DNA from: a virus
Length of the DNA: 32,350 nt
Direction: 5' to 3' (one strand)
IMG/VR virus record: IMGVR_UViG_3300021959_000215
Span: 1-32,350 of that record
The notes beneath the pieces are model-generated. The model saw nothing but the letters and a program-made list of their open reading frames with translations. It had not been told where the DNA came from and did not search any database. The translations under genes and the position numbers were made by a program. Within the stretch, counting starts at the first letter, position 1, and every line of letters begins with the position of its first letter. Positions 1,363 to 18,038 of this stretch are shown here, piece after piece.

Positions 1363-2633
1363 TGATAGAATTTAGAGATTATCAGAAGGACATAATAGTC
1401 AAAGGCACGGAGATGATTCGTGCCAAAGGCTTTCTCTACCTTGCGATGGAGGTAAGGACGGGAAAGACACTGACGAGTTTAGGAATTTGTGAACAGCTCA
1501 ATGTTGATAACGTGCTGTTCCTTACAAAGAAGAAGGCGATGTCAAGTATCATAGATGACTACGATATGCTATGCCCAAACAGCTTTGCGTTATTCGTTAT
1601 CAACTATGAGTCGATACATAAGGTCCCAAACATTAGGTGGGACGTTATTATATGTGATGAGGCACACTCGATGGGAGCCTTCCCAAAGCCTAGCAATAGA
1701 GCTAAGGATGTTAAGAGCCTCATACAGAGAAACGACCCCCATGTGATACTGATGTCAGGTACACCGACACCTGAGTCATACTCACAGATGTATCATCAGG
1801 TGTATGCGATACCAACGAACCCATTCAGTAGATACCCAAGCTTCTATAAGTTTGCACATGATTGGGTCAAGGTAAAGCAGAGGAAGATAAACGGAAACCT
1901 TATCAATGACTATAGCAATGGCTTAGATAGTATAACAAAAGCAATGTCACACCACACCATCAACTACTCACAGAAGCAGGCAGGCTTTGAGGTGGACACA
2001 CGAGAGCATATACTTAGGGTAAGGATGGAGGACAAGACATACGCACTAGCAAAGAGACTCAACAAGGACCTAGTGGTTGAGGGAAAGGATGAGGTGATAC
2101 TTGCAGACACTCCGGTAAAGTTAATGATGAAGCTTCATCAGATATACTCAGGCACAATAAAGTTTGAGTCGGGGAGTAGCATGATTATTGATATGACTAA
2201 AGCGAACTTTATTAGAGAGAGGTTCAAGGGAAAGAAGGTGGGAATATTCTACAAGTTCAAGGAGGAACTCAAGGCAATCAAGCAGGCATACGGAGGGGAT
2301 GTCACTACAGAGCTGAGTGAATTTGAGCAGACAGATAAGTCCATCGCCCTACAGATTGTGTCAGGCAGAGAGGGTATCTCTCTACGTCAGGCAGACGCAT
2401 TGGTCTACTACAATATTGACTTCAGTGCGACAAGCTATTGGCAGAGTCGTGACAGAATGACAACAAGAGACAGGCTAGAGAGCGATGTCTATTGGATATT
2501 CAGCGAGGGAGGTATAGAGGACGACATACACAAGGCAGTATCAAAAAAGAAGACGTATACAGTTAATTACTTTAAAAAGGATTTCGTAAATTTGTTAGGT
2601 GACAGAGCAACAAATCCAATCAAAAAGAATTAA
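1362..2633 (+). CDS. SNF2-like superfamily 2 DNA helicase/translocase
   Basis: This 423-aa protein has the full SF2 motif set: motif I RTGKT at residues 32-36, Ia VLFLTKK at 51-57, Walker B/motif II DEAH at 99-102, motif III SGTP at 132-135, motif V GREGISL at 335-341 and motif VI QSRDRMTTRDR at 361-371. The short length and the SWQxxR-like motif VI match the compact SNF2-type helicases common in tailed phages, which use ATP to translocate on double-stranded DNA during replication or recombination. The start ATG overlaps the preceding stop. The 3' end overlaps the next gene, a VRR-NUC nuclease, by 35 bp in another frame; the SNF2 plus VRR-NUC pairing is common in phages and suggests joint action on branched or damaged DNA. 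The enzymatic class is clear; the substrate is inferred. Confidence 0.92.
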   Translation: MIEFRDYQKDIIVKGTEMIRAKGFLYLAMEVRTGKTLTSLGICEQLNVDNVLFLTKKKAMSSIIDDYDMLCPNSFALFVINYESIHKVPNIRWDVIICDEAHSMGAFPKPSNRAKDVKSLIQRNDPHVILMSGTPTPESYSQMYHQVYAIPTNPFSRYPSFYKFAHDWVKVKQRKINGNLINDYSNGLDSITKAMSHHTINYSQKQAGFEVDTREHILRVRMEDKTYALAKRLNKDLVVEGKDEVILADTPVKLMMKLHQIYSGTIKFESGSSMIIDMTKANFIRERFKGKKVGIFYKFKEELKAIKQAYGGDVTTELSEFEQTDKSIALQIVSGREGISLRQADALVYYNIDFSATSYWQSRDRMTTRDRLESDVYWIFSEGGIEDDIHKAVSKKKTYTVNYFKKDFVNLLGDRATNPIKKN

Positions 2634-2838
2634 GCAGCTTGAGTCTGAGGGGTACTACGTTATCAAGCTAGTCAAGACCAACAAGAATGGGATACCTGAC
2701 CTGATAGCTATACCACCGAACTGCAATGTATTGTTCTCAGAAGTGAAGAGACCCGGAGGTAAGGTCTCAAGATTACAGGAATATAGATTAAAAGAACTAG
2801 AAGATTATGGATTTAAAACAGAAATATACAAAGGATGA
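2599..2838 (+). CDS. VRR-NUC domain nuclease
   Basis: This 79-aa single-domain protein has the VRR-NUC form of the PD-(D/E)XK fold: the catalytic GIPDLIAI (PD at residues 33-34), SEVKRPGG with EVK at 48-50, and the following conserved VSRLQEYRLKEL with Q60. Family members (FAN1-like and phage stand-alone forms) cut structured DNA such as flaps and Holliday junctions. The chosen start is GTG at 2599, inside the 3' end of the helicase gene; no closer ATG keeps the first helix. The next gene overlaps its end by 32 bp, so translation is probably coupled. Length is normal for a stand-alone phage VRR-NUC protein and all catalytic residues are present. Confidence 0.92.
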   Translation: MTEQQIQSKRIKQLESEGYYVIKLVKTNKNGIPDLIAIPPNCNVLFSEVKRPGGKVSRLQEYRLKELEDYGFKTEIYKG

Positions 2839-3148
2839 TTGGTCGGAGTACGAGATAAACGGCTCAATGTTTATGGCTCTTGCCGAGTATACGGAGGAGC
2901 AGACAGATGAGATACTACTACAGATGGACACATACGAGGACGTGCTACCTATAAAGGAGGCACAGACACAGATGATTGGTGGCATCGTACAACACGATGA
3001 GCCAATGTTCTTTGAGCTGACATACATCAAGCAGCCGGGAGAGATGACACTGTTCTTAGAGATAAACGAGACGGACTGCGACACATACTTAGATTATATG
3101 AACCTTAATAAAACATTAATAAAATGCAATCAGAATTTAATAAAGTAA
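2807..3148 (+). CDS. hypothetical acidic protein
   Basis: I do not recognise this 113-aa protein. It is acidic, with many Glu and Asp residues, predicted mixed alpha/beta, and without signal peptide, membrane segment or cysteine cluster. Features include the helix-like stretch EYTEEQTDEILLQMDTYEDV and a beta-like segment MFFELTYIKQPGEMTLFLE. It overlaps the VRR-NUC gene by 32 bp and the following DnaA-like gene by 25 bp, both in other frames, which is typical of this compact module and supports it being translated. Function is unknown; its place suggests an accessory replication or host-takeover protein. Confidence 0.7.
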   Translation: MDLKQKYTKDDWSEYEINGSMFMALAEYTEEQTDEILLQMDTYEDVLPIKEAQTQMIGGIVQHDEPMFFELTYIKQPGEMTLFLEINETDCDTYLDYMNLNKTLIKCNQNLIK

Positions 3149-3786
3149 AAGAGATAGTAGAGAACGTATTTGATATAGAGGACCTGCTAAAAAAAGACAG
3201 GGCACACCCGATACCCACAGCAAGGGCGGTCTTCTCTAAGATTATGGGCGATAGGGGATACGGTATAACCCCCATCTCAAAGTTCCTAAATTACCACCAC
3301 ACAACCATTGTGCATTACAACAAACACATTGATTTGTACATCAGCCACAATGAAATTGTTAGGGGCAAATACAATGACGTGCTTAGGTGTGTAGATGAAA
3401 ACACTGTAAACATAATAAGGGAGGAGGACTCGGCAGTTTTAAAAAGTCAGATAATAACTTTGAAAAAAGAAAATAAAAAATTAAATTTGAAAAACACCAT
3501 GCTAAAGAATGACGTTTTAAAGAAGATAGATGAATACTTTTTATCTATAAAGAACAGATACAGTATAAACGACCTAGCAAGAATAGAATCATTTAAGACA
3601 TGGGATGATAAACAAAAGATAAACGAGATGCTTAGGATAGACTCCTCACTTTATGCCACGCTTGGCTCTGATTCTACAGAGAAAGAAAGGAATGAGGTAA
3701 GGAGAAACTCTAAGAAGATATATGGGTACATTAAAAACATTGACCCCATGTTTGGTAACGCCTTAATACAGGCAATGGATTTATAG
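3124..3786 (+). CDS. DnaA domain IV-like DNA-binding protein with coiled coil
   Basis: Residues about 25-75 of this 220-aa protein resemble the C-terminal DNA-binding domain of DnaA: a helix with ARAVFSKIMGDRGYG, then the helix-turn-helix ITPISKFLNYHHTTIVHYNKH, which parallels the DnaA signature where a His-Thr-Thr/Ser-Val stretch contacts the DnaA box. The AAA+ ATPase domain is absent. The middle is a Lys/Glu-rich coiled coil (about residues 105-140) and the rest is helical. Such proteins could bind a phage origin or host DnaA boxes and load or block replication factors. The neighbouring helicases support a replication role. The DNA-binding call is good; target and effect are unknown. The next gene starts directly after its stop. 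Confidence 0.75.
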   Translation: MQSEFNKVKEIVENVFDIEDLLKKDRAHPIPTARAVFSKIMGDRGYGITPISKFLNYHHTTIVHYNKHIDLYISHNEIVRGKYNDVLRCVDENTVNIIREEDSAVLKSQIITLKKENKKLNLKNTMLKNDVLKKIDEYFLSIKNRYSINDLARIESFKTWDDKQKINEMLRIDSSLYATLGSDSTEKERNEVRRNSKKIYGYIKNIDPMFGNALIQAMDL

Positions 3787-3981
3787 ATGAGTATAAACAA
3801 CGCAGATAGAGAGAGGCTTATTCATATCAACTTTGTTATGAATCAGATTCACGAGCACTCTAATGCGATATACGAGCATCTAGTAGATAAGGAGTACGAG
3901 CAGGTATCGTTAGAGATTCATATGCTCAAGGACGTGTTGAATACCCTATCGCAATCTATAAGCAATAATGGAACAAGATAG
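3787..3981 (+). CDS. small helical hypothetical protein
   Basis: This 64-aa protein is predicted almost entirely helical, with His, Glu and Asn-rich helices (IHEHSNAIYEHLVDKEYE) and a heptad-like second half (LEIHMLKDVLNTLSQSI). I do not recognise it. It starts with no gap after the DnaA-like gene and overlaps the HNH gene by 14 bp, so it sits inside a coupled gene chain, which is the main support for it being real. A small helical binding partner or anti-host factor is possible, but nothing in the sequence shows it. Confidence 0.6.
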   Translation: MSINNADRERLIHINFVMNQIHEHSNAIYEHLVDKEYEQVSLEIHMLKDVLNTLSQSISNNGTR

Positions 3982-4354
3982 AAAGTGTAGAGAGTGTGGG
4001 GAGGAGAAGGACGTCTCAGAGTTTCACTCTGCAGGGGTGAAGAACGGAAAGAGATACTACAGAAGAAAGTGTAGGGACTGCTATAGATGTGTTAAGCGAG
4101 CATACAGAGACAGAAAGCTGTCATGGTTCAGGGAATACAAGGGAGGACTATCGTGTCTCTCTTGTGGATACTCAAAGGACACCAATGAACACTTCTCTAT
4201 AAAGGCTTTAGAGTTTCATCACGACAACGATGACAAGCTCTTTAATGTTAGCGAGGGTCTATACCTTGGATACTCAAAGGATAAAATATTAAATGAAATA
4301 AACAAATGCATGGTGCTGTGTTCAAGATGCCATGCCGAAAAACACACGAAATGA
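3968..4354 (+). CDS. HNH endonuclease
   Basis: This 128-aa protein has two zinc-binding parts. The N-terminal part has C7/C10 (CREC) and C35/C38 (CRDC), a treble-clef or zinc-ribbon-like region followed by a basic helix rich in Arg and Lys. The C-terminal HNH core has CLSC (C63, C66), the catalytic-type LEFHH (H84, H85), and the closing CSRCH (C118, C121, H122). This layout is typical of small phage HNH nucleases that nick or cut DNA, either as free-standing homing enzymes or in replication and packaging. It is not inside or beside an intron as far as the sequence shows, and it lies in the replication arm away from the terminase, so a role in DNA processing or homing is more likely than packaging. 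All metal ligands are present. Confidence 0.88.
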   Translation: MEQDRKCRECGEEKDVSEFHSAGVKNGKRYYRRKCRDCYRCVKRAYRDRKLSWFREYKGGLSCLSCGYSKDTNEHFSIKALEFHHDNDDKLFNVSEGLYLGYSKDKILNEINKCMVLCSRCHAEKHTK

Positions 4355-5066: not shown

Positions 5067-8000
5067 TTATCTTTGTCTTCTTTTTCTTCTACTACTTGTT
5101 TTTCTTTGTCTTCTTTTTCTTCTACCACTTGACTCCTCTTCCTCCCCTTCATCGCTATCTTTTTCTCTTAACCCTTTATATATATCTTCATTCAACTTCT
5201 TTCTAATGTCTTTATAGAAAGGAACAAGACCTGTTAGTCCCAAAAGCTCAAGAGGGATTCTCTCTTTTTTTTCTCTGCGTTGTCTCTCTCTAGCTTCCTC
5301 TTCTTTCTTTGGTTTAGAAAAGAAAAGTTTATTACCTGAAAATATAAGGGACTTTACAAGAGGTGTGTAGGGACCTAGCATATTAGGAAGTATGTCTGAA
5401 GCTATATCGGTTTCTTTATACGACTTCTCAGGAGGTATGATATTAAATTGAACTTGATTCTTAAACGGGTCATACCTACCTTCTCTAAGACCTAAGTCTC
5501 TGCCATACTCTTTATTCGCCCACTCGATGAATCCATTCTGTATCATCTTTACAATAGCACCAAAGTCTCTTCCAATAAATAGATTAGTCATAGTTGAAAC
5601 TATTCCCCTATAAACCCTTGTGTATATACTTTCATCTTCATCTTCATCATCATCACCAAAGATAAGCGAGGCTAGTATAGGCATGAGTGTTGTATATATT
5701 GTCATTCTTGCTGATACAGCAAGCATTAATCTTGCACCTCTTCCCCGAGATATATCACCCCTTCCCATCGCTGCATACATCCCCTTTCTAAATGCATTGT
5801 ATTCAAACAATAAGAACCTTTGCATAAATGTATTAATAGTTTTAAGTAAAGAAGAAACCCCCTTATCAGAAGCCCTCTTCTTGTTCTTTAGGATACCCAT
5901 TAAAGGGTTGTCTGTAGCACCAATAAGAACTGTATTGTCGTCAGCCTTCCTCTTCGCCTCATTGATAGCCTCCTCAAACTTATCCATGTATTCAGCATCG
6001 TTCTCTGCAATCTTGTTAAAGTCTACCTCTTGCCCTGTAATCTTTTTAAACTCAGTTGCAAATGAACCAAACCACATGGGTCTTGTAACCAACTTATCGG
6101 GGGTGGTAATCATAAAGTCAGCAACAACCTCAACGCCTCTAGGATATTTTTTAAGATATGAAAGACCTTGGTTTAGTCTGTTAACTACAGGATTCTTTGC
6201 TGAGTCAGCAGCCATTCCCATCTTTTTGTTTATCATAGAGGATTCAACAAACCTACCTGATAGTTCTTCACCATACATCCTTGCGGTCTGCTTACTGTTT
6301 ACGTTGTTCATTACCTCAACTCCTCTGTCACTAAAAGCAACCTTCATATTTTTAGGCTTACTTCCTTCCGCAAACTCAGTAGGATTATTTAATGCAAAGG
6401 CATAGTTGGAAGCTAGCTCCACAAAAACTCTTGGCACACTTGCAAGCATAGAACGATACCCCTGCTTAGCTGCATACTGAAATACCTGCTCACCAATACT
6501 ACTACTTGTAAAGGTGTTCTCAAGTATGTCAGCGATAGCCTGATTGTATGCGTCCCTTACAGCTAAGAATATCTGTCTCTCTTGACCTGCAGCATCAAGC
6601 TGTTTCTCTATCTTGTTGAGAGTTCTATTAGCCGTCCTTAATGGAGCGGTTAAATGATAGTCCATCAGCGTCATCTTGGCTCCCCTCCTAACAGATGCGG
6701 TAATATCAAAGTTGATAGCCTTAGCACCCTTTGTTCTTTCAATAAGGTTCTTTGCTTTAGTTGATGGCTTGATGTTCTCCATATAGTTTTCACTAAGAGC
6801 ACGGGAGTCGTCCACTGCTACACCATCTGTATTTAAAACGGACTGATGGATGTAGTCATTCAGGGGCTCTATTGATTCTCCTCTAATAACTGAGGCTGTA
6901 TATGTAGCCTTGTCTGTTAGCTTTGAGTTTATGTCTTGAACCGTCTTTATCATATTTAGCTCGGCATAAACAAAACTGTCATCTAGTTTCTTTAAATCTA
7001 TTTGACCGTCTGTAGAATAATTTTCTAATATCCCCTGTAATATATCTGCCTCATAGCTTTGGTTACTGTCTCTAAGTTTTGTAATTGTAGCCTCTATAAC
7101 CTCAGCGGCAGGGTTCACTTGTGAGTTGTTAGGGTTGGATTCAAACTCTTGCTGAACCATATAAGCCATCTGCTTATACTTAGACTCTAATATCTCATTG
7201 CCGTTGTTTTTAAACTTCTTTTGTAGCAGTGCCTCTGCGTCCTCGATAGTGTTATAGACCTTGTTTAGCTCAGTGTTAAAAGTCGTAACCGCCTCTGCGG
7301 ATTCTTCAAGGACAGAATTAAATATTCTTTTACTTGTAAAATCTCCAAGAACCATATCAATATTTATCAGAGGGTTCCTTTCTATTAGTTTGTAAAACTT
7401 ATTAGCGTCTGAGCCTTTTTGATACAGCGTTTTAATTTTTGCTATCTGTGTACTGACGGCAAGTGGCTTAGCATCCCTGATGCCTTCAGCTCCTGTCTTA
7501 GACCTGTTGATTGATACCAAGTTCTCTGATGCCAACTGAACATAGTGAGTGACATACCCATTGTTTATATTGTCAATAGCCTTCTCAATATTCTTAAGCT
7601 GTGCATTGTTCAAGTCATTGATGGCATCAGTCTTTATAAGTCTTGCAAAATCTTTTACTAAAGCTTTCTCTATTGCTAGCTCTATCCTTTCAATATCAAC
7701 CTTAGCAGATTTAACACTCTCTAAAAGAATCTTTTTCTCTTCCTCAATCTCTTCCTGCTTCTGCTCCTCCGTCTTGCCCTCTGCTGTTTCAATAGGTATA
7801 ATCTCTGTCCTAAACTTCTTCATAAGCTTAGACTCTTCCTCAGTTATTACTTTATCCTTAAGCATCTTCTTAACGGTCTTTGCATAGTCAACCTTGCCGT
7901 CTCTTTCTTCTTTTTCAAAAGCCTCAAACCTTTCTGTAAGCTCACCTAACTTTGAGTTTTGATTCTCTAGTTCAGTAAAGATGTTTACTATAGTCTCCTT

Positions 8001-11000
8001 AACCTCAACAGAATCCTTCAGGTTAAGCACTGTCTTTCTCTCACCGAATGATGTAACAAGGTCAGAGTATTCTTCAAGGACGGAGTCAGGAATAATAGTA
8101 GGGCTTATGTTTAACAATCTCCTTAGCTCATAAGCCAAACCATCTGCCCCTCTACCAATCCTGCTATTGATATTTTTCTTCGCCTGCTTGATGCTTTTGT
8201 TTAGGCTTGTCATCTTTGCTGCATAATCAACATCTGAGAACACCTTCTGCATATAGTCAACGAATGAATCAATAGACTTCTCACTTGATAGATTTACATT
8301 GGCAAATCTATTTGTAACTGCAAGAAGCTGTGACTGAGATAGCTTGCCTTTGGATTTTCTCTGTATAGCTTTAAGCCTACTCTTGATTTCATCCTTAGCC
8401 TTTTTCTGAGCCATCTTATCAGCTCTAGTAATAGACCTATCGAACTTCAGTATGTCTTTAATAAGCTGTGCGTCCTTCTCTTTAATATCAGTAATGTCCT
8501 CAACATTATTGAACAGTCTCTTGACTGCATCCTTCAGGTCACCTCTGTTCGCTCTCTTGATTTCACTGATGGCTTTGTTTCTAGTGAGACCCTTTTCACT
8601 CATTAAGTAATCCACAATCACTGCATCACGAATCTCAGCGGCTCTAGCTTTCTTTATAATATTCTGAGCAGACATTGAAGGTTTTACTTTCCCCTTCTCT
8701 TTCATTGATGACATAGAATAAAAACTTTCTGCATCAAACTCACTCATAAAAAGAAGTTGGTCTTCTCTTGCCACATCCTCCGTCTCCTCAAATAAAGTTT
8801 CTCTTCTTTGCTTAGGAGTCATTGATAATCTTTCCTCTACATTCCTAGCCTCAACTTCTCCTGCTGCTTTTTTATAATTTTCAAAATCTTGAGAGCTACT
8901 TCCTACCTCTTCATATTGTTCTATTCTTTGCTCAATAGATATTATCTTGTCGAGCCTACTCTTAACTTTTTCTAATAATAATTTTTCATCCCCTTTAGAT
9001 TTTGAAATGAGGTTGTTAATTTTTTTACTCATTTCTTCTGAAGACATTTCTGAATAAAATATCTCCTCAATCTTTGGTGATAGTTTATCTCCTACATCAA
9101 TATCAAATTCAGAACTAAACCTAATTGAATTTATAACACTTCCTATTATTTCTTTTTGCCTTTGATATACATTTGCAAGTGAAGAACTTATTTCGTCAAG
9201 TACACCTTCAGAGCTAGTGCCTCGTGAAAAATCTTCTTTCAGCATCTGAGCATAGTGCTGAACCTCGTGACTTATTATTTGAAGAAGTTCAAATTCTCTC
9301 TCTCTAAAAGGTTTATCATAATAATATAAAGGGTTTACATAAATAGTTATACTTGGGTCTTCATCTTCAAAAAAAGCAGGTTTCATAAACACCCCTTCAA
9401 GTCCTCCCTCATAATGATACGTGGATATATCTATAACAACTTTTAAATCTTCAATAGATTCATTCATTGTGGAGTCCCATCGTCCAAACTTCTCCATTGC
9501 TTCTTCTTGACTCATCTTTCGATAAGCATTAAACAGTTCTTTGTTTTTAATTAAGTCTGATAACTTATATTCTTTTTTTGTTTCAATAAGCTTTTCAGGA
9601 TTTTTTACAGCAACCTTTACTATCTCGAAAACAGAATCGTCTATTTCTTTTAATGCTTTTGATTCTTTATTAAGCTCATTAGGTAATGTCTCATACCTCC
9701 ATTTGCCATCGGTTCCTTTCTCCCAACCTGTCGCTAATCTTATATCTTTAGGCGATTGGTTGTTTTCTTCCATTGCTCTAGCAATAGAAAGATTCTCTCT
9801 TACCTGTTGACTGAGGTCTGCATTCTCACCTATAATCTGCATCCTTGCCTTTGCAGACTCAGCCGCCTCTTCAGGTTTGAACTTGGCATCGACTGCCTCT
9901 CCTGAGAATAGTTCGGCAAGACCAATGTCAACAAAGTCTTCAAGGCTTATGTCTTTAATATCCTTAGTCTTTACATCCTTAAATCGTGTAAGCTTTTCCT
10001 TGATGTATTTAAAGAATGCATTGAACCACTCAACAAACTTAGCCTTCTTGGCTGCATTCGCAATGGTCTCACCCTTTGTTCCCATGAGCTCAACCAACGC
10101 CTCCTCACGAGCCAATGCATTGTCTCCATACTTTTTTATAGCACTCTCCAAAGCTTTTGTTCCTTCAACCAACTCAAGACCTTTCTCTAGTAGCTTGGTT
10201 CCTTTTGCTTCAGAAGATTCTGAACGTAGGTAGTCAATCCATATGTGACCGAACTCATGTATCGGTGTAGACAAGGACTCCTTAGATGGGTTCAAGAATA
10301 TCTTTCCATCTTTTGTGAGACCAAGGATAGTATTTCCGTTGGCTTCTGCCTTCCTGATTCCTTCCTGCTTGAGCACTTCATCAAACTCTTGTTGAGTTTG
10401 AGAAACACTTACGGTTGGGAATGCGAACCTCATCTGTGCAGATAACATATCTATATCAGAAATCTCTTCAGCTAATCTTGAGCCTCTAAACGCTTTATCT
10501 CCAAACACCTGACCGTATACATCAGCTAATACTTGAGCATCAGATTTAAATTTACCCGTGCTTGGTTTAAGTTCAAACATCTTAAACGCCTTGGTTCTCC
10601 ATTCAGGAAAAACATTTAAAACATTTGTAGGATTTTTAATCAATGCGATAAGTCTACCTTTAGGACCGAAGCCATAGTTGTTGTGCTTGGCTTTTGTTAC
10701 ACCACCGTTCTTACTGACATCGACACCCATGATAGCTACCGCATCACCTCTCTCACCCTCTACCATTGACGGCTCACCAATTTCAGATAGGATATTATCT
10801 ATTAAAAATATCTCTCCGTTGTAATCCGTTGCCTCCATTATTGCTTTTGCAACAGGCTTCGATGGTTTTTTAACACCTGAAGGAGAAGCAATCATCTCAA
10901 GTAAGAAAGTTTTGGTTGGTAGAATAAAAGTATTCTCATCCCCCTTAGCTCTCTTCTTTGCATCTTCAACAACTAAATCAAATAGAGTTCCTATATCTTT

Positions 11001-14000
11001 TATCTTGTTCTTTTTTATAAAGGCTTCTATTAATGCGGGCTCTTCTGATTTACTTTTTTCTTTCTTAGACTCTATCTGCTTCATCAAAGCATCGAATGCT
11101 TTCTTTTGAACAGCCTTTGGAAAAGACTTTAACTTTGGAGCCATGAATCTAAACATAGCCTCGTTAGAATTTATGGCTTTATTATCCATCCTTACTACCA
11201 CCATAGGCACATGGTTCTTTGGTAGCTTACCTTCCTTCCATAGCCTATCAAATAATTCTTTATTGGCACGATATGTCTCCTTAGCTTCTTTAAACTGTAC
11301 CGTTGCACCTGTCTCATTCACACCTGCCCATGCTAACGCCTTGTTTCTTCCAAGCACGTTGTAAAGTAGACCCCCATCTACCTGCATATCATTACCCATT
11401 GAGTCTTTTACTGTACCTGCTGCCAATACATCTGACATAGCTACGACCATAGGTATACCATTGAACTCTTCGATGTTCTTAAGCATATCATCTACAGACT
11501 TGAAGCCTAACTTCTTGGCTTGTGCGTCTGTGATTTTCTTTAGAGACTTGCTTAATGCTATAGGGTCAACTTGTGTTTGCTTTTCTCCTACAGGAATCTT
11601 GAAGTTCGCTTCTGCAGAGCCAAGACCTTTCATCACTTCAACGATAGCTTCTTCAGTAATGAATCCTTCCTCAGTCTCAACAGTAGCGTCATCGCTCAAT
11701 CTAAATCTAGTACGCTTACCTTCCTTAAGCTCAGTGATGATGTTGTTATACTTCTTCTTAGTCTGTTGTATCTCATCTCTTATCTCTTCCTTCTGCTCAA
11801 ATCCTCTTGTCCTATCTAGCTTTGTTTTTAGCGGACCTACAATTGAATCTCTCGTGCCTTCAGCTCTCTTAATCTCTTTCTGTACCTCCTCAGATATCTT
11901 AGCCTCTTCCTTAACAGGTGCTTTCTTCTTAGTGGTTTTCTTAGGAGCCTTCTTAGGCTCTTCCTTAACAGGAGTCTCTTTAACTACAGGCTTCTTCTTT
12001 CTTGTCTTTCTTTTAGGGGCTTGTTTAACAGGTGCTTCTTTAGCTAACTGCTCTTTTGCAATTTTTATTTCTTCTTTTAGACCTCGAACAGCAGCTTTAG
12101 CTCTATCGCTTGTGGATTGGTCTTTTGATTGAGTATCTATTTCAGCCTCTTCAAGCTTTTCCTCTAACACTTCTAATGGCTGCTCACTTAAGTTGTCGTA
12201 ATCAAAAACTTTAGCATTTCTCTTAGGAGCTTCCTCTACTACAGGTGCTTCCTCTACTACCTCTTCAGTAACCTGCTCAACTACAGGTGCTTCCTCTACT
12301 ACCTGCTCCTGTGCTGCAGGCATTACACCTGAGAGCTCAAGGTATCTCTGCTTGTTCCCTTCAAAGACACGCTGCTGCATCTTGCCTAGCTTCTTCTGTG
12401 CCTGCTCAGGAGATAGAGGTGACTTTCTTTTGGCGTTCTCAGCCTCAATCTTCTCCATAATTCCTAGCAGTACACCATCAGTCTCCTCCTGTGTTAGCTC
12501 ACCCTTCTTCTCCTTAGCTACAAGGTCAGTTGTAATCTTTGTGATAGGCTGAGTCTCTATTGCCTCCTGCATAGCGGTACGCTCCTCCTCAGTGACAGGT
12601 GCTTCCTCTGTAACCTCCTCAGTTACTGTGGTCTCCTCAGCAACGGGAGCATCAACAGGGGATTCTTTAATAGGCGATTCTTCTATTACGGGTGCAGCAT
12701 CAGTTTCTGTTTTTGATTTTCTTGATTGACCGATACTATTTAATAAGAAATCTATTTCTTTTATTCTCTTAATATTTTCAGACTCTAACTCTTTATTTTT
12801 ACCTGCTATCTTTTTTTCAATCTGCTGCTTTTCTCTAAGTAAAATAAATGATTCTCTTTTTTTATTAGTGCTTAGGTCTTCAGGTATTTGACTCATTATA
12901 CCTTTGCCATTATTTAAAATATCAAGACTTTCATTATAACGCTTTTGAGTAATATTGCCCGTTTCTAAATCTAACCTTAAGCTAACTCTTCTTTTAGTTA
13001 AATCCTTATCGTTCATTAAGTCCTCATATAAAAACTTAAATTGCTTGTTGTCTTGTTTTGTTTTAAATCCTTTTTGTAAAGACCCAACAGCTCTGAAGCC
13101 TCCGCCTCCAATTCCTCCTGCTATTATTCCTAATTCTACAGATTCATATACCGCATCTATATATGATTGCATTCCTTCCTTTGTACTTAAGTCAGGAACT
13201 TTAAAAACGTCCATACTGTAAAACTCATTGTATATTCTTTTAAATAAATCTTCAGATATGGTTTGAGCACCTTCTGTAGCACCTTCCGTTATTTGATTTG
13301 TAGCAATCTCGCCCCCTAAACTAACCAACCTAGCTTTTAAATTATTTCTAATAGCTGCCTTGATAGTTTTTTCAGATGCATCTTTAGGCAAGTCCTTTAA
13401 AGTCCCTATAGCTACGTTCATAAATATAGGAAAGTTTCCTCTATTTAAAATCTTGATACCTGAAATACCCTCTAGCATTTGTTCTACAAGAGTAATTGGT
13501 AATGCCAATAATCCTTTTTGATATTCGGGGATATCCACGTCTTTCAATTCTTGAGAGATAGCACCATATGTTTGAGGGGCAAAGCCTGAGCCTGTAGCTA
13601 ATAATTGCTTTGCTTTTTTCCCTATCCCCACAACTTCTCCTGCCAATCCTAAACCCTTTGAAACCCATCCTCCAAATATAATTGATGGTATCATATCTGC
13701 GAATACATCTGCTGCTTTTTGCGACATAGGTCTTACCGCCATAGACTCAGGAGTCGTTCCTGTAAATCTTTCTTTAGCTATTTCTATAGCTTCTAACGCT
13801 GAATTTTTTATCTCCTTTTTTTCTTCATTAGATAATATGGGCGATGGAAGACTCATCAACGCACCCGTACCTCCCTCTGAAAAACCATATATAAACTTTG
13901 CAAATCCTGTATTTATTGCACTCGCCCAACTCCCTTGTTGTGCTAATTCTTTAGAGTACACTCCTTCTGAAACAGACATTTTTTTTCTAATCATGTCTAT

Positions 14001-15839
14001 TGTTTCTTGAGAAATATTTCCTTTGTTTTTATCTAAAAAGAAATTTATATGGTCCACATCAACAACGCCTATTGACCTGTCCTTCCCATACATAGCAGGA
14101 GAATCTGCATCACCAAACTTTTTTGGGTTGCTTACAAGAAAATTATATATCTCTAGCTCTTTAACAGGGTCTTTACCAAAGTTTTCTTTTTCATATTGAC
14201 CTATAGACTGTGTAGACCTACCAACAATACCATCAATCTCTTTGTAATAATTATCTGCTTTATCAATAAATGCTTTATCTTTTTTAGAAAGTAAAGAGCC
14301 ACTCATAAAATCTCTTATTCTATCTACAGGATTATTGTTTTCTTTTAAATATATTTCTAAAGCTTTAACAACTCTTCCCTGATTATCCTTTGTGCTTATG
14401 GTAATATAGTCTCCATATTTATCATGCTCTACTCCTGCTGTAACAGCCTTTGATACTTCAAAATCAAATGATGGAAATTCTCTGCTTAAATTTGCTACTG
14501 TTGAATCCTCATCCCCGATAACAACGGCTTGATTTATTAATGAGTTTTCTTTATTATCATTCTCATATTCTGTACCAATAAATAAAGGGTCTTCATTCCC
14601 TGATATCTTCTTATATACCTCCCATTCCTGCTCACCAAAATCATTGTAGAATTTTTTTGTAGCCTTACTATATACTTCTTCGTATGCTTGAGGCGTTAAA
14701 ATCTTACCTTCATTTTTTTCATACAAATCAGAAGAAATATTTTTTATAATAAAGTCCCTCTTTAGTTTTCCTAAGTATATTTTCTTTGCATTATCTCGTT
14801 TCGTTTCATCATTTAAAGATGCAGTAAAGTCAAAATCTTTTGACGGAAGTAACATCCGTGAGTTTACATCTATTAAATTCTCTACAACCCTTTCCTTTTT
14901 TTGAGATGGCAAAAGGTTTTTATCTACAACATATTGATTAAATAATTTATTTTTCTTTAATACAATATAGTCATCATAGCTAACAGGCTCTTCACCTTTA
15001 GATATTAACTCTGCGTTTTTTTTATCTATCTCATTAATTTCATCTTGAGAAAGAACATTATCACCTACCTGCTTACTAAACTCTTCAAAAAGCTTGGAGT
15101 CAGCATTAGATTTATCTTCAAATAAATTGCTATATTCTTCAATAGAAATAGTTTCAAGATTCTCTTGAGATGCTATAGAGTTGTAGATATCAATAAGTGA
15201 TGTCTTATATTCTTGAATGTCTTGCTCCTCTTTCCTCTCCTCTTCTTGATAAACCTCTATATCTTTTTGGGTGACTATTTTTTTATCTATTCCCTTGTCA
15301 AGATTACTTAGCTTAATGCTAGTTATCGCTGCCTCTTCCTCTGTAGGTTCGTAATCTATTCTTGATTTTTCTTCAGCTTCTTTTAAATCAAACCTGTCAC
15401 CCGTAAAGTCTACTGCTTGTATTGTTCCTACATCTCTTCTTGAAGGGGCTTCATCTACAGGAGACTCCATCTGAGCAATGCTCTGCTCAGTAAGTGGCAT
15501 CTCTTCCTCAGATACACGCCAACTTGGACCACCAATCTGCTCAAATACTTCCTTACTCTTCCTTTGTGATTCCGATAAACCATCTGCCGATACTGATTCC
15601 GTATCTTCTTTTTTTTTTAATGGGTCCTCAGTAATCGTCTCCTCAACTACAGCTCCTGATGGTGAATACTTTACATCGAACTCTTCTCTTGAGTTAGTAT
15701 ACAACCCGTCACGGGTAACAACACCAAAGACTTTGTCTCTGTATGCAGGGTCATTGTATTGGGATTGAAACTCTTCAAATGATTTGGTGTAGTAACCATC
15801 TCTAGTTAGTACATTAAATAATTTTTCTAACTCGTCCAT
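5067..15839 (-). CDS. giant internal/ejected virion polyvalent protein with two zincin motifs
   Basis: This 3590-aa protein fills a third of the window. It begins with two 30-aa-period repeats (RDGYYTKSFEEF, RDGLYTNSREEF, residues 6-58). Hydrophobic, Gly-rich segments around 680-800 may be membrane-active. A Pro/Ala/Val/Glu then Lys-rich linker spans about 1050-1320. Two HExxH zinc-protease motifs follow: HEFGH at 1861-1865, and HEVQH at 2191-2195 with a downstream GEVEAR at 2327-2332 that could supply the third ligand, as in phage large polyvalent-protein (LPD) zincins. After long coiled coils, the C-terminal 400 residues resemble gp16-like ejection proteins, with a hydrophobic helix near 3375-3393, an acidic stretch (GDDDEDEDES) and a basic end. 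It is the third gene of the 253/472/3590 set, suggesting injection with the DNA. No RNA polymerase motif (DFDGD) was seen. Confidence 0.85.
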   Translation of the reverse strand: MDELEKLFNVLTRDGYYTKSFEEFQSQYNDPAYRDKVFGVVTRDGLYTNSREEFDVKYSPSGAVVEETITEDPLKKKEDTESVSADGLSESQRKSKEVFEQIGGPSWRVSEEEMPLTEQSIAQMESPVDEAPSRRDVGTIQAVDFTGDRFDLKEAEEKSRIDYEPTEEEAAITSIKLSNLDKGIDKKIVTQKDIEVYQEEERKEEQDIQEYKTSLIDIYNSIASQENLETISIEEYSNLFEDKSNADSKLFEEFSKQVGDNVLSQDEINEIDKKNAELISKGEEPVSYDDYIVLKKNKLFNQYVVDKNLLPSQKKERVVENLIDVNSRMLLPSKDFDFTASLNDETKRDNAKKIYLGKLKRDFIIKNISSDLYEKNEGKILTPQAYEEVYSKATKKFYNDFGEQEWEVYKKISGNEDPLFIGTEYENDNKENSLINQAVVIGDEDSTVANLSREFPSFDFEVSKAVTAGVEHDKYGDYITISTKDNQGRVVKALEIYLKENNNPVDRIRDFMSGSLLSKKDKAFIDKADNYYKEIDGIVGRSTQSIGQYEKENFGKDPVKELEIYNFLVSNPKKFGDADSPAMYGKDRSIGVVDVDHINFFLDKNKGNISQETIDMIRKKMSVSEGVYSKELAQQGSWASAINTGFAKFIYGFSEGGTGALMSLPSPILSNEEKKEIKNSALEAIEIAKERFTGTTPESMAVRPMSQKAADVFADMIPSIIFGGWVSKGLGLAGEVVGIGKKAKQLLATGSGFAPQTYGAISQELKDVDIPEYQKGLLALPITLVEQMLEGISGIKILNRGNFPIFMNVAIGTLKDLPKDASEKTIKAAIRNNLKARLVSLGGEIATNQITEGATEGAQTISEDLFKRIYNEFYSMDVFKVPDLSTKEGMQSYIDAVYESVELGIIAGGIGGGGFRAVGSLQKGFKTKQDNKQFKFLYEDLMNDKDLTKRRVSLRLDLETGNITQKRYNESLDILNNGKGIMSQIPEDLSTNKKRESFILLREKQQIEKKIAGKNKELESENIKRIKEIDFLLNSIGQSRKSKTETDAAPVIEESPIKESPVDAPVAEETTVTEEVTEEAPVTEEERTAMQEAIETQPITKITTDLVAKEKKGELTQEETDGVLLGIMEKIEAENAKRKSPLSPEQAQKKLGKMQQRVFEGNKQRYLELSGVMPAAQEQVVEEAPVVEQVTEEVVEEAPVVEEAPKRNAKVFDYDNLSEQPLEVLEEKLEEAEIDTQSKDQSTSDRAKAAVRGLKEEIKIAKEQLAKEAPVKQAPKRKTRKKKPVVKETPVKEEPKKAPKKTTKKKAPVKEEAKISEEVQKEIKRAEGTRDSIVGPLKTKLDRTRGFEQKEEIRDEIQQTKKKYNNIITELKEGKRTRFRLSDDATVETEEGFITEEAIVEVMKGLGSAEANFKIPVGEKQTQVDPIALSKSLKKITDAQAKKLGFKSVDDMLKNIEEFNGIPMVVAMSDVLAAGTVKDSMGNDMQVDGGLLYNVLGRNKALAWAGVNETGATVQFKEAKETYRANKELFDRLWKEGKLPKNHVPMVVVRMDNKAINSNEAMFRFMAPKLKSFPKAVQKKAFDALMKQIESKKEKSKSEEPALIEAFIKKNKIKDIGTLFDLVVEDAKKRAKGDENTFILPTKTFLLEMIASPSGVKKPSKPVAKAIMEATDYNGEIFLIDNILSEIGEPSMVEGERGDAVAIMGVDVSKNGGVTKAKHNNYGFGPKGRLIALIKNPTNVLNVFPEWRTKAFKMFELKPSTGKFKSDAQVLADVYGQVFGDKAFRGSRLAEEISDIDMLSAQMRFAFPTVSVSQTQQEFDEVLKQEGIRKAEANGNTILGLTKDGKIFLNPSKESLSTPIHEFGHIWIDYLRSESSEAKGTKLLEKGLELVEGTKALESAIKKYGDNALAREEALVELMGTKGETIANAAKKAKFVEWFNAFFKYIKEKLTRFKDVKTKDIKDISLEDFVDIGLAELFSGEAVDAKFKPEEAAESAKARMQIIGENADLSQQVRENLSIARAMEENNQSPKDIRLATGWEKGTDGKWRYETLPNELNKESKALKEIDDSVFEIVKVAVKNPEKLIETKKEYKLSDLIKNKELFNAYRKMSQEEAMEKFGRWDSTMNESIEDLKVVIDISTYHYEGGLEGVFMKPAFFEDEDPSITIYVNPLYYYDKPFREREFELLQIISHEVQHYAQMLKEDFSRGTSSEGVLDEISSSLANVYQRQKEIIGSVINSIRFSSEFDIDVGDKLSPKIEEIFYSEMSSEEMSKKINNLISKSKGDEKLLLEKVKSRLDKIISIEQRIEQYEEVGSSSQDFENYKKAAGEVEARNVEERLSMTPKQRRETLFEETEDVAREDQLLFMSEFDAESFYSMSSMKEKGKVKPSMSAQNIIKKARAAEIRDAVIVDYLMSEKGLTRNKAISEIKRANRGDLKDAVKRLFNNVEDITDIKEKDAQLIKDILKFDRSITRADKMAQKKAKDEIKSRLKAIQRKSKGKLSQSQLLAVTNRFANVNLSSEKSIDSFVDYMQKVFSDVDYAAKMTSLNKSIKQAKKNINSRIGRGADGLAYELRRLLNISPTIIPDSVLEEYSDLVTSFGERKTVLNLKDSVEVKETIVNIFTELENQNSKLGELTERFEAFEKEERDGKVDYAKTVKKMLKDKVITEEESKLMKKFRTEIIPIETAEGKTEEQKQEEIEEEKKILLESVKSAKVDIERIELAIEKALVKDFARLIKTDAINDLNNAQLKNIEKAIDNINNGYVTHYVQLASENLVSINRSKTGAEGIRDAKPLAVSTQIAKIKTLYQKGSDANKFYKLIERNPLINIDMVLGDFTSKRIFNSVLEESAEAVTTFNTELNKVYNTIEDAEALLQKKFKNNGNEILESKYKQMAYMVQQEFESNPNNSQVNPAAEVIEATITKLRDSNQSYEADILQGILENYSTDGQIDLKKLDDSFVYAELNMIKTVQDINSKLTDKATYTASVIRGESIEPLNDYIHQSVLNTDGVAVDDSRALSENYMENIKPSTKAKNLIERTKGAKAINFDITASVRRGAKMTLMDYHLTAPLRTANRTLNKIEKQLDAAGQERQIFLAVRDAYNQAIADILENTFTSSSIGEQVFQYAAKQGYRSMLASVPRVFVELASNYAFALNNPTEFAEGSKPKNMKVAFSDRGVEVMNNVNSKQTARMYGEELSGRFVESSMINKKMGMAADSAKNPVVNRLNQGLSYLKKYPRGVEVVADFMITTPDKLVTRPMWFGSFATEFKKITGQEVDFNKIAENDAEYMDKFEEAINEAKRKADDNTVLIGATDNPLMGILKNKKRASDKGVSSLLKTINTFMQRFLLFEYNAFRKGMYAAMGRGDISRGRGARLMLAVSARMTIYTTLMPILASLIFGDDDEDEDESIYTRVYRGIVSTMTNLFIGRDFGAIVKMIQNGFIEWANKEYGRDLGLREGRYDPFKNQVQFNIIPPEKSYKETDIASDILPNMLGPYTPLVKSLIFSGNKLFFSKPKKEEEARERQRREKKERIPLELLGLTGLVPFYKDIRKKLNEDIYKGLREKDSDEGEEEESSGRRKRRQRKTSSRRKRRQR
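11880..12680 (-). repeat. imperfect low-complexity repeats encoding an Ala/Pro/Val/Glu and Lys-rich linker
   Basis: Inside the giant gene the sequence encodes recurring EEAPV/EEVTEE units followed by a Lys-rich part (KKAPKKTTKKKAPVKEE). At DNA level a 20-base unit, acaggtgcttcctctactac, occurs exactly at 12241-12260 and 12283-12302 (42-bp period), with a degraded copy near 12593. The acidic half followed by a basic half looks like an unstructured tether between the N-terminal third and the enzymatic centre of the protein. Confidence 0.75.
15666..15824 (-). repeat. two 30-residue repeats at the N-terminus of the giant protein
   Basis: Residues 6-28 (KLFNVLTRDGYYTKSFEEFQ and on) and 36-58 (KVFGVVTRDGLYTNSREEFD and on) align without gaps, sharing V-x-TRDG-x-YT-x-S-x-EEF and a Tyr at the end. 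The repeats lie at the very start of the protein, before the first long coiled region. Confidence 0.85.
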
Positions 15840-17276: not shown

Positions 17277-18038
17277 TTAAAAGTTTCTTTGAGTAGAACC
17301 ACCTAATTGTGCAAATGATTGCAAGGCATTCATTTGGTTTGTACTAATACCTTGTGGGGTTCCTGATTTTTGAAGACCTGCTAAATAATTTAATGTTTCA
17401 GGGTCAAACATTCCTCCTCCAACAGCCGCTCCTCTAGTTCCTCCTTGTGTACCTGCTCCTCCTGACTTGTCCTTTCCATATAGCTCAAACATAGCCTCTC
17501 CCGTATAAGGATTTACTGCTCCCATCTGCTGACCAACGCTAGCTAATGACCCCATACCTGAGGTGATAGCTGCCGTCTTAGCTGTCTGTGCATCTCTTGC
17601 GGCAAGCTGTGCTCCCTCAGCCTCTTGTAATGAAAGATTTGCTAACTCATTCGCAACCCTTGCCTCGTCCTTAGCCTTTAGGTTCTCAATAGTCTCAAGC
17701 TGTTTTATCTGTTGGTCTCGAACCTTAGCCTGTGCCTCGTCTCCTGCCATAGCAATAGCACCCACACGACCCATACCTGCTGCCCCCATCTCGGCTGCAG
17801 CCTGTGTTGCCTGTGCCGCCTGCGATGCAAACTGCTCACGCTGACGCTCATATGGTGTGTCGCTAACTGTTAGTGCCTCGTAAGGTTTTACTTGAATCTG
17901 TTTCTTAGCCTCAGCGACAGCCTTCTGTGCTGCCCTGTTTGCCTTATCTATTTCTTTCTGTCTCTGACCTGCTTGGATAAATGACCCGACCCCTGATAGA
18001 GCCTGTACTCCTAAGCCGATTGCCGCTAATACTGCCAT
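17277..18038 (-). CDS. putative internal virion protein (T7 gp14-like)
   Basis: This 253-aa, Ala/Gln/Gly-rich protein starts with a hydrophobic helix (AVLAAIGLGVQALSGVGSFI), followed by long amphipathic helices (residues about 25-165, rich in Ala, Gln, Glu) and a Gly-rich C-terminus (GGAGTQGGTRGAAVGGGMF). This build, its size and its position just before two larger internal proteins match the small ejection protein of podoviruses (T7 gp14-like), which forms a pore-like channel in the host outer membrane. It is the first gene after a TATCTTTG promoter element at 18061-18068, so it likely begins a transcription unit for the ejection proteins. Homology is not shown by a signature motif, so the role rests on composition and context. 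Confidence 0.65.
   Translation of the reverse strand: MAVLAAIGLGVQALSGVGSFIQAGQRQKEIDKANRAAQKAVAEAKKQIQVKPYEALTVSDTPYERQREQFASQAAQATQAAAEMGAAGMGRVGAIAMAGDEAQAKVRDQQIKQLETIENLKAKDEARVANELANLSLQEAEGAQLAARDAQTAKTAAITSGMGSLASVGQQMGAVNPYTGEAMFELYGKDKSGGAGTQGGTRGAAVGGGMFDPETLNYLAGLQKSGTPQGISTNQMNALQSFAQLGGSTQRNF

Follow-up and report, generated by a model that had tools for sequence, protein, structure and literature searches.

A single predicted phage protein of 3,590 residues that carries two separate zinc-protease motifs raises the question of whether both motifs belong to metallopeptidase domains, how two came to stand in one chain, and what they might do there. The protein (the giant) is encoded on a 32,350-base IMG/VR fragment (IMGVR_UViG_3300021959_000215), the whole of which was analyzed and is referred to as the window. 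A sequence-only reading had described an ejected-type protein with two zinc-protease motifs in tandem, a long charged tether ahead of them, and a gp16-like membrane-active C terminus behind them. The open reading frame was as read, on the minus strand, which that reading omitted (Table 1). The favored interpretation, at a probability of roughly 0.7, is that the giant is a polyvalent ejection protein consisting of a conserved C-terminal chassis and swappable N-terminal and central cargo, the latter including a resident zincin (Z1, HEFGH) and a recently inserted one (Z2, HEVQH).

The two motifs, beginning at residues 1861 and 2191 and lying 330 residues apart, were the only HExxH sequences in the chain, with GEVEAR at 2327 as described; none occurred in other predicted proteins of the stretch. 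At the composition of the giant (0.33% His, 10.8% Glu), 0.004 HExxH motifs would be expected per 3,590 residues, so that HEFGH and HEVQH are not attributable to chance, and none of 5,000 shuffled versions contained two. The tether was also borne out and was rich in K, E, and P.

Table 1. Positions in the window of the giant, its predicted parts, and the two genes upstream
Feature	Residues	Position	Strand	Basis
Giant virion-type (polyvalent) protein, 3,590 aa		5067..15839	-	Open frame, ATG to stop
Charged K/E/P-rich tether	about 1001-1372	11724..12839	-	Sequence and composition
Conserved domain of unknown type, then Z1 (one traveling unit)	1373-2004	9828..11723	-	Alignment of 47; AlphaFold2; BFVD fold relatives phage-wide
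HEFGH, predicted zinc-binding helix of Z1	1861-1865	10245..10259	-	Invariant in 47 homologues (motif was a search seed)
E1912-E1913, candidate third zinc ligand of Z1	1912-1913	10101..10106	-	Both invariant in 47; later helix in model
Inserted cassette, LPD23 plus Z2 zincin	about 2002-2381	8697..9836	-	Absent in four relatives with flanks aligned; GC3
LPD23	2005-2050	9690..9827	-	PF18838, E = 5.8e-10
HEVQH, predicted zinc-binding helix of Z2	2191-2195	9255..9269	-	H, E, Q, H invariant in 62; model helix 179-201
Long helical insert between the two zinc helices of Z2	2211-2315	8895..9209	-	Homologue comparison and model
GEVEAR, candidate third zinc ligand helix of Z2	2327-2332	8844..8861	-	G, E, E, R invariant in 62
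C-terminal chassis	about 2401-3590	5067..8639	-	Matched in 68-71/71 relatives; PHROG 32588 (unknown function)
gp15-position protein, 472 aa		15855..17273	-	Homologue upstream of giant in 62/64 relatives
gp14-position protein, 253 aa, hydrophobic N terminus		17277..18038	-	Homologue in 64/64 relatives

Genes on the minus strand followed the order terminase, portal, scaffold-position protein, capsid-position protein, and further head and tail genes up to a 1,500-aa structural protein, after which came proteins of 272, 253, and 472 aa and then the giant. Because the named phages nearest to the capsid-position protein were Maribacter phage Panino (55%) and Flavobacterium elemo phages (48%), with Cellulophaga phages also among the matches, the source is predicted to be a short-tailed virus (podovirus) of Bacteroidota-type bacteria. 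The order small hydrophobic, middle, and largest protein is that of the T7 gp14/gp15/gp16 ejectosome, and the 253-aa protein had a hydropathy peak of 1.82 at residue 3. Since homologues of the gp14-position and gp15-position proteins were found in 64 and 62, respectively, of the 64 relatives with enough upstream DNA, the giant occupies an ejection-protein position, in support of the earlier ejected-type label. The same LPD23-HELQH...GEVEAR unit was found in the PLxRFG protein of Pseudomonas phage H66 (3,787 aa) and a structural protein of phage 8P (5,145 aa), giants that residues 1700 to 2400 of the window protein, as query, matched only at the end of that unit. The record of the H66 giant is annotated as verified in virions by mass spectrometry; no statement that Bacteroidota giants occur in virions was located in the open-access literature. 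Gene position and the H66 annotation together make it likely that the giant enters the cell by injection, along with the DNA.

Z1 was placed at about residues 1790 to 2004, the end of a conserved unit of about 630 residues. Across 47 homologues, HEFGH, W1867, E1912, and E1913 were invariant, the invariance of the motif being partly selected because HEFGH was one search seed. The AlphaFold2 model of the unit (pLDDT, 89; pTM, 0.88) contained strands at 464 to 471 and 474 to 477, the HEFGH helix at 485 to 500, and a later helix bearing E540/E541 (model numbering), and its fold matches in BFVD were phage structural and polyvalent proteins. Neither Z1 nor Z1-like domains matched a peptidase family in Pfam significantly, and sequence profiles against the PDB gave nothing useful (best relevant match, IrrE; E = 0.27). 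A broad Z1 profile aligned with the zincin-like domain (C1) of the N4 virion RNA polymerase (vRNAP) with a probability of 82.7%, in register, strand and then HExxH, and with Z2 in the same register at 41%; a control profile gave 0.1%. From these profiles, Z1 appears to resemble the N4 zincin domain. The rest of the unit, residues 1373 to 1789 (10473-11723, minus strand), is a well-folded conserved domain that travels with Z1, carries GIPM..GMSD..., AWAGV, and NSNEA, and has no match in Pfam.

The search for LPD domains suggested with the sequence-only reading succeeded for Z2, where LPD23 scored 39.3 bits, above the Pfam gathering cutoff of 27. Pfam DUF6782 ("putative metallopeptidase") was matched by 5 of 7 Z2 homologues scanned and not by the window's own copy, so that Z2 is best described as a predicted LPD23 domain joined to a DUF6782-type metallopeptidase, the latter link coming through homologues. 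Used by itself as a direct query, the Z2 sequence retrieved no relatives that could be confirmed, its seeds probably lying in lineage-specific stretches; an alignment-based search succeeded. The insert between the two zinc helices is about 105 residues long in the window copy and differs in length among homologues, that of L047 being short. In the Z2 model (pLDDT, 84.5; pTM, 0.79), as in that of Z1, the order strand-strand-HExxH helix-Glu helix fits the published zincin core (PMC5512222). Because neither model, each with large extra parts, matched a solved structure in the PDB by Foldseek at E ≤ 0.001, a zincin fold for Z1 and Z2 is supported, not proven. The proposal of two zinc-protease domains is accordingly strengthened by conserved domains, invariant candidate ligands, LPD23/DUF6782 for Z2, and the N4 alignment for Z1; in its structural check the predicted secondary structure fits, although no solved zincin was matched. 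That same missing Foldseek match speaks for the two motifs being accidental or sitting in unrelated helices, a reading made very improbable by their low expected count, by their invariance over many divergent homologues, and by the shared register of Z1, Z2, and the N4 domain against the 0.1% control.

One or both domains might instead have the zincin fold in a structural or metal-binding role without protease activity, or perform other HExxH chemistry, such as αKG-dependent hydroxylation. HExxH occurs also in radical SAM-associated enzymes (PMC12633501, the N4 structure paper), and the Z1-type motif of one relative (L074) gave a weak, sub-cutoff match to NCBIfam mod_HExxH (E = 0.028). However, the invariant third-ligand glutamates of both domains fit metallopeptidases, and DUF6782, matched by Z2 homologues, is a putative metallopeptidase family, which makes this alternative improbable.

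The cassette carrying LPD23 and Z2 was absent, with flanks aligned, from the four nearest relatives (L001, L183, L002, and L003). In L001, identity was high on either side of the missing residues (about 2002 to 2381). Identity to the window was 89% (L001), 73% (L002), and 45% (L003) in the Z1 unit and 82% (L001) and 88% (L183) in the chassis. The second motif is thus missing from close homologues, as the earlier reading had considered a refutation might find, but through absence of the whole domain and not through mutated histidines. GC3 of the cassette was 0.24, compared to 0.37 and 0.41 in its flanks; that of the giant's N-terminal 1,000 residues was likewise low (0.25). Because four relatives are without the cassette, its recent gain in the window's lineage is favored by these alignments. 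If the favored interpretation is right, pairs such as the window and L001 or L183, which share the chassis and differ in the second zincin, are natural experiments on the role of the cassette.

Beyond these neighbors, the last ~1,150 residues of the giant were matched in 68 to 71 of 71 relatives, compared to only 1 to 24 of 71 for most central segments. A search with the C terminus of a single protein returned 8 loci, one of its seeds being an acidic run, and was rerun with an alignment (A4). The C-terminus-only search yielded 59 nonredundant complete giants, of which 17 had a Z1-type domain, 7 had Z2 (1 of these also with Z1), and 30 had no HExxH. A near-universal HEFGH in the family, seen in an earlier homologue search partly seeded with IHEFGHIW, was rejected as seed bias in favor of this unbiased count. 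On a chassis tree of 71 rows, a set that includes zincin-selected loci, at least 9 changes of state were required for Z2 and at least 11 for Z1, a count in which gain and loss are indistinguishable. One zincin-free relative had a GNAT match below cutoff instead. Because Z1 and Z2 are patchy while the C-terminal residues are conserved throughout, the zincins appear to be exchangeable cargo on a conserved chassis. Cassette presence and absence, modularity, and conservation of the predicted catalytic residues are thereby documented by sequence comparison, and the case illustrates cargo exchange in such phages on a probably injected protein.

More tentatively, and at somewhat less than even odds, the last ~1,150 residues may be a dedicated delivery chassis of Bacteroidota podoviruses, the phage analogue of polymorphic toxin delivery: enzyme cassettes would be exchanged ahead of it, preferentially by insertion at the junction of Z1 and chassis. 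Early-infection effectors could then be recognized as whatever precedes the chassis. If the favored interpretation is right, the conserved chassis would offer a way to find injected enzymes that act early in infection, in a large group of phages that are for the most part uncultured.

The gp16-like, membrane-active C terminus of the earlier reading was not supported by sequence. Homology of the C terminus to T7 gp16 or to the C2 part of N4 vRNAP was rejected, with hhalign probabilities of 0.2% and 0.1%, respectively, and no profile similarity to either. The Kyte-Doolittle maximum of the C-terminal part over a 19-residue window was 1.44, near residue 3371, with no clear transmembrane segment by hydropathy, and no Pfam lytic transglycosylase family was matched in the giant. 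The likeness to gp16 is one of position and of a basic tail as in T7 relatives (RRKRRQR), strong in the giant; across the family, only 23 of 71 members have a strongly basic tail. Because the chassis resembles neither T7 gp16 nor N4 vRNAP in profile comparison, it is position that points to an ejection role. N4 vRNAP (gp50), which follows two smaller ejection proteins as the third and largest, has zincin-like C1 followed by a mostly helical C2 of about 1,125 residues (PMC12633501). The giant likewise has a zincin-like domain before a long C-terminal part; unlike N4 vRNAP, it has a second zincin between the two, and a polymerase domain was not found.

Tandem zincins proved less unusual than the earlier reading implied: Iyer et al. 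(2017; PMC5512222) described polyvalent proteins with 1 to 5 MPTases, in some cases present in multiple copies, so that two metallopeptidases per chain is an established theme; the empty site in close relatives is unusually clear. Like those proteins, the giant is a multidomain product of a late-gene setting with an LPD domain and MPTases with a variable insert between zinc helices. It differs in its family, which belongs to Bacteroidota podoviruses and shares a specific C-terminal chassis that is conserved, in a second zincin documented as present or absent between close relatives, and in a Z1 without a Pfam family. At least two HExxH motifs were found in 48 of 64 distinct Z2 carriers, compared to about 2.4 motifs expected by chance over all 64. 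Z2 followed Z1 within about 20 residues in five giants (those of the window, L046, L047, L110, and L124), a close tandem that may point to a favored site or to two domains that function as a pair. Three HExxH motifs each were seen in L074, L095, and L100, with two LPD23-zincin (Z2-type) domains per chain in L095 and L100 and a sub-cutoff match to a DNA cytosine methyltransferase model in L074. The 3,865-aa protein of L086 (MW202828.1) has two HEFGH motifs, at 1621 and 2506, and has been annotated, apparently in error, as "reticulocyte binding/rhoptry protein." A contig of the Aquimarina longa SW024 genome (L172) encodes a 2,670-aa giant with Z1 and then Z2, equal in length to those of IMG/VR loci L047 and L139 and with its motifs at the same positions; it sits in what is probably a prophage, which would give a possible cultured host. 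Relatives already in culture include Flavobacterium elemo phages and Tenacibaculum Gundel_1, of which the latter has HEFGH.

As to mechanism, the chassis would probably package the giant and drive its exit with the gp14- and gp15-like partners, by synteny and by analogy to N4 and T7, and the exchangeable N-terminal and central part would act in the host. Since half of the family makes the giant without any HExxH, the zincins, here Z1 (HEFGH...EE) and Z2 (HEVQH...GEVEAR) placed between Z1 and the chassis, most likely act after injection, at slightly better than even odds, as putative proteases on host proteins or in releasing cargo. Alternatively, they might cut the giant itself, either within the procapsid or in the course of ejection, with cleavage in the tether or at interdomain positions giving pieces that can pass through the tail or be set free. 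Such a virion-processing role is possible because heads of phage P1 contain DdrB, a protein with a metallopeptidase at its C terminus, in a form processed before packaging, for which Iyer et al. propose self-processing (PMC5512222); the charged tether ahead of Z1 and the location of both zincins directly before the chassis are compatible with it. Self-processing is nevertheless considered unlikely, given that about half of the C-terminus-defined family is without HExxH and that no sign of degradation was seen for N4 vRNAP, another protein with a zincin-like domain (PMC12633501).

Two minor observations concern the ends of the giant gene. Its strand meets convergent transcription at about 4.9 to 5.1 kb, beyond which a small protein with CxxC pairs and, by eye, an HNH-like C terminus (3968-4354, plus strand) is encoded opposite to the structural genes. 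At the N terminus, the first 150 residues were matched in 19 of 71 relatives and the next ~600 were not matched; residues 6 to 60 (15660-15824, minus strand) form a tandem repeat of about 32 residues, VLTRDGYYTKSFEEF / VVTRDGLYTNSREEF, which could be a sorting or packaging signal.
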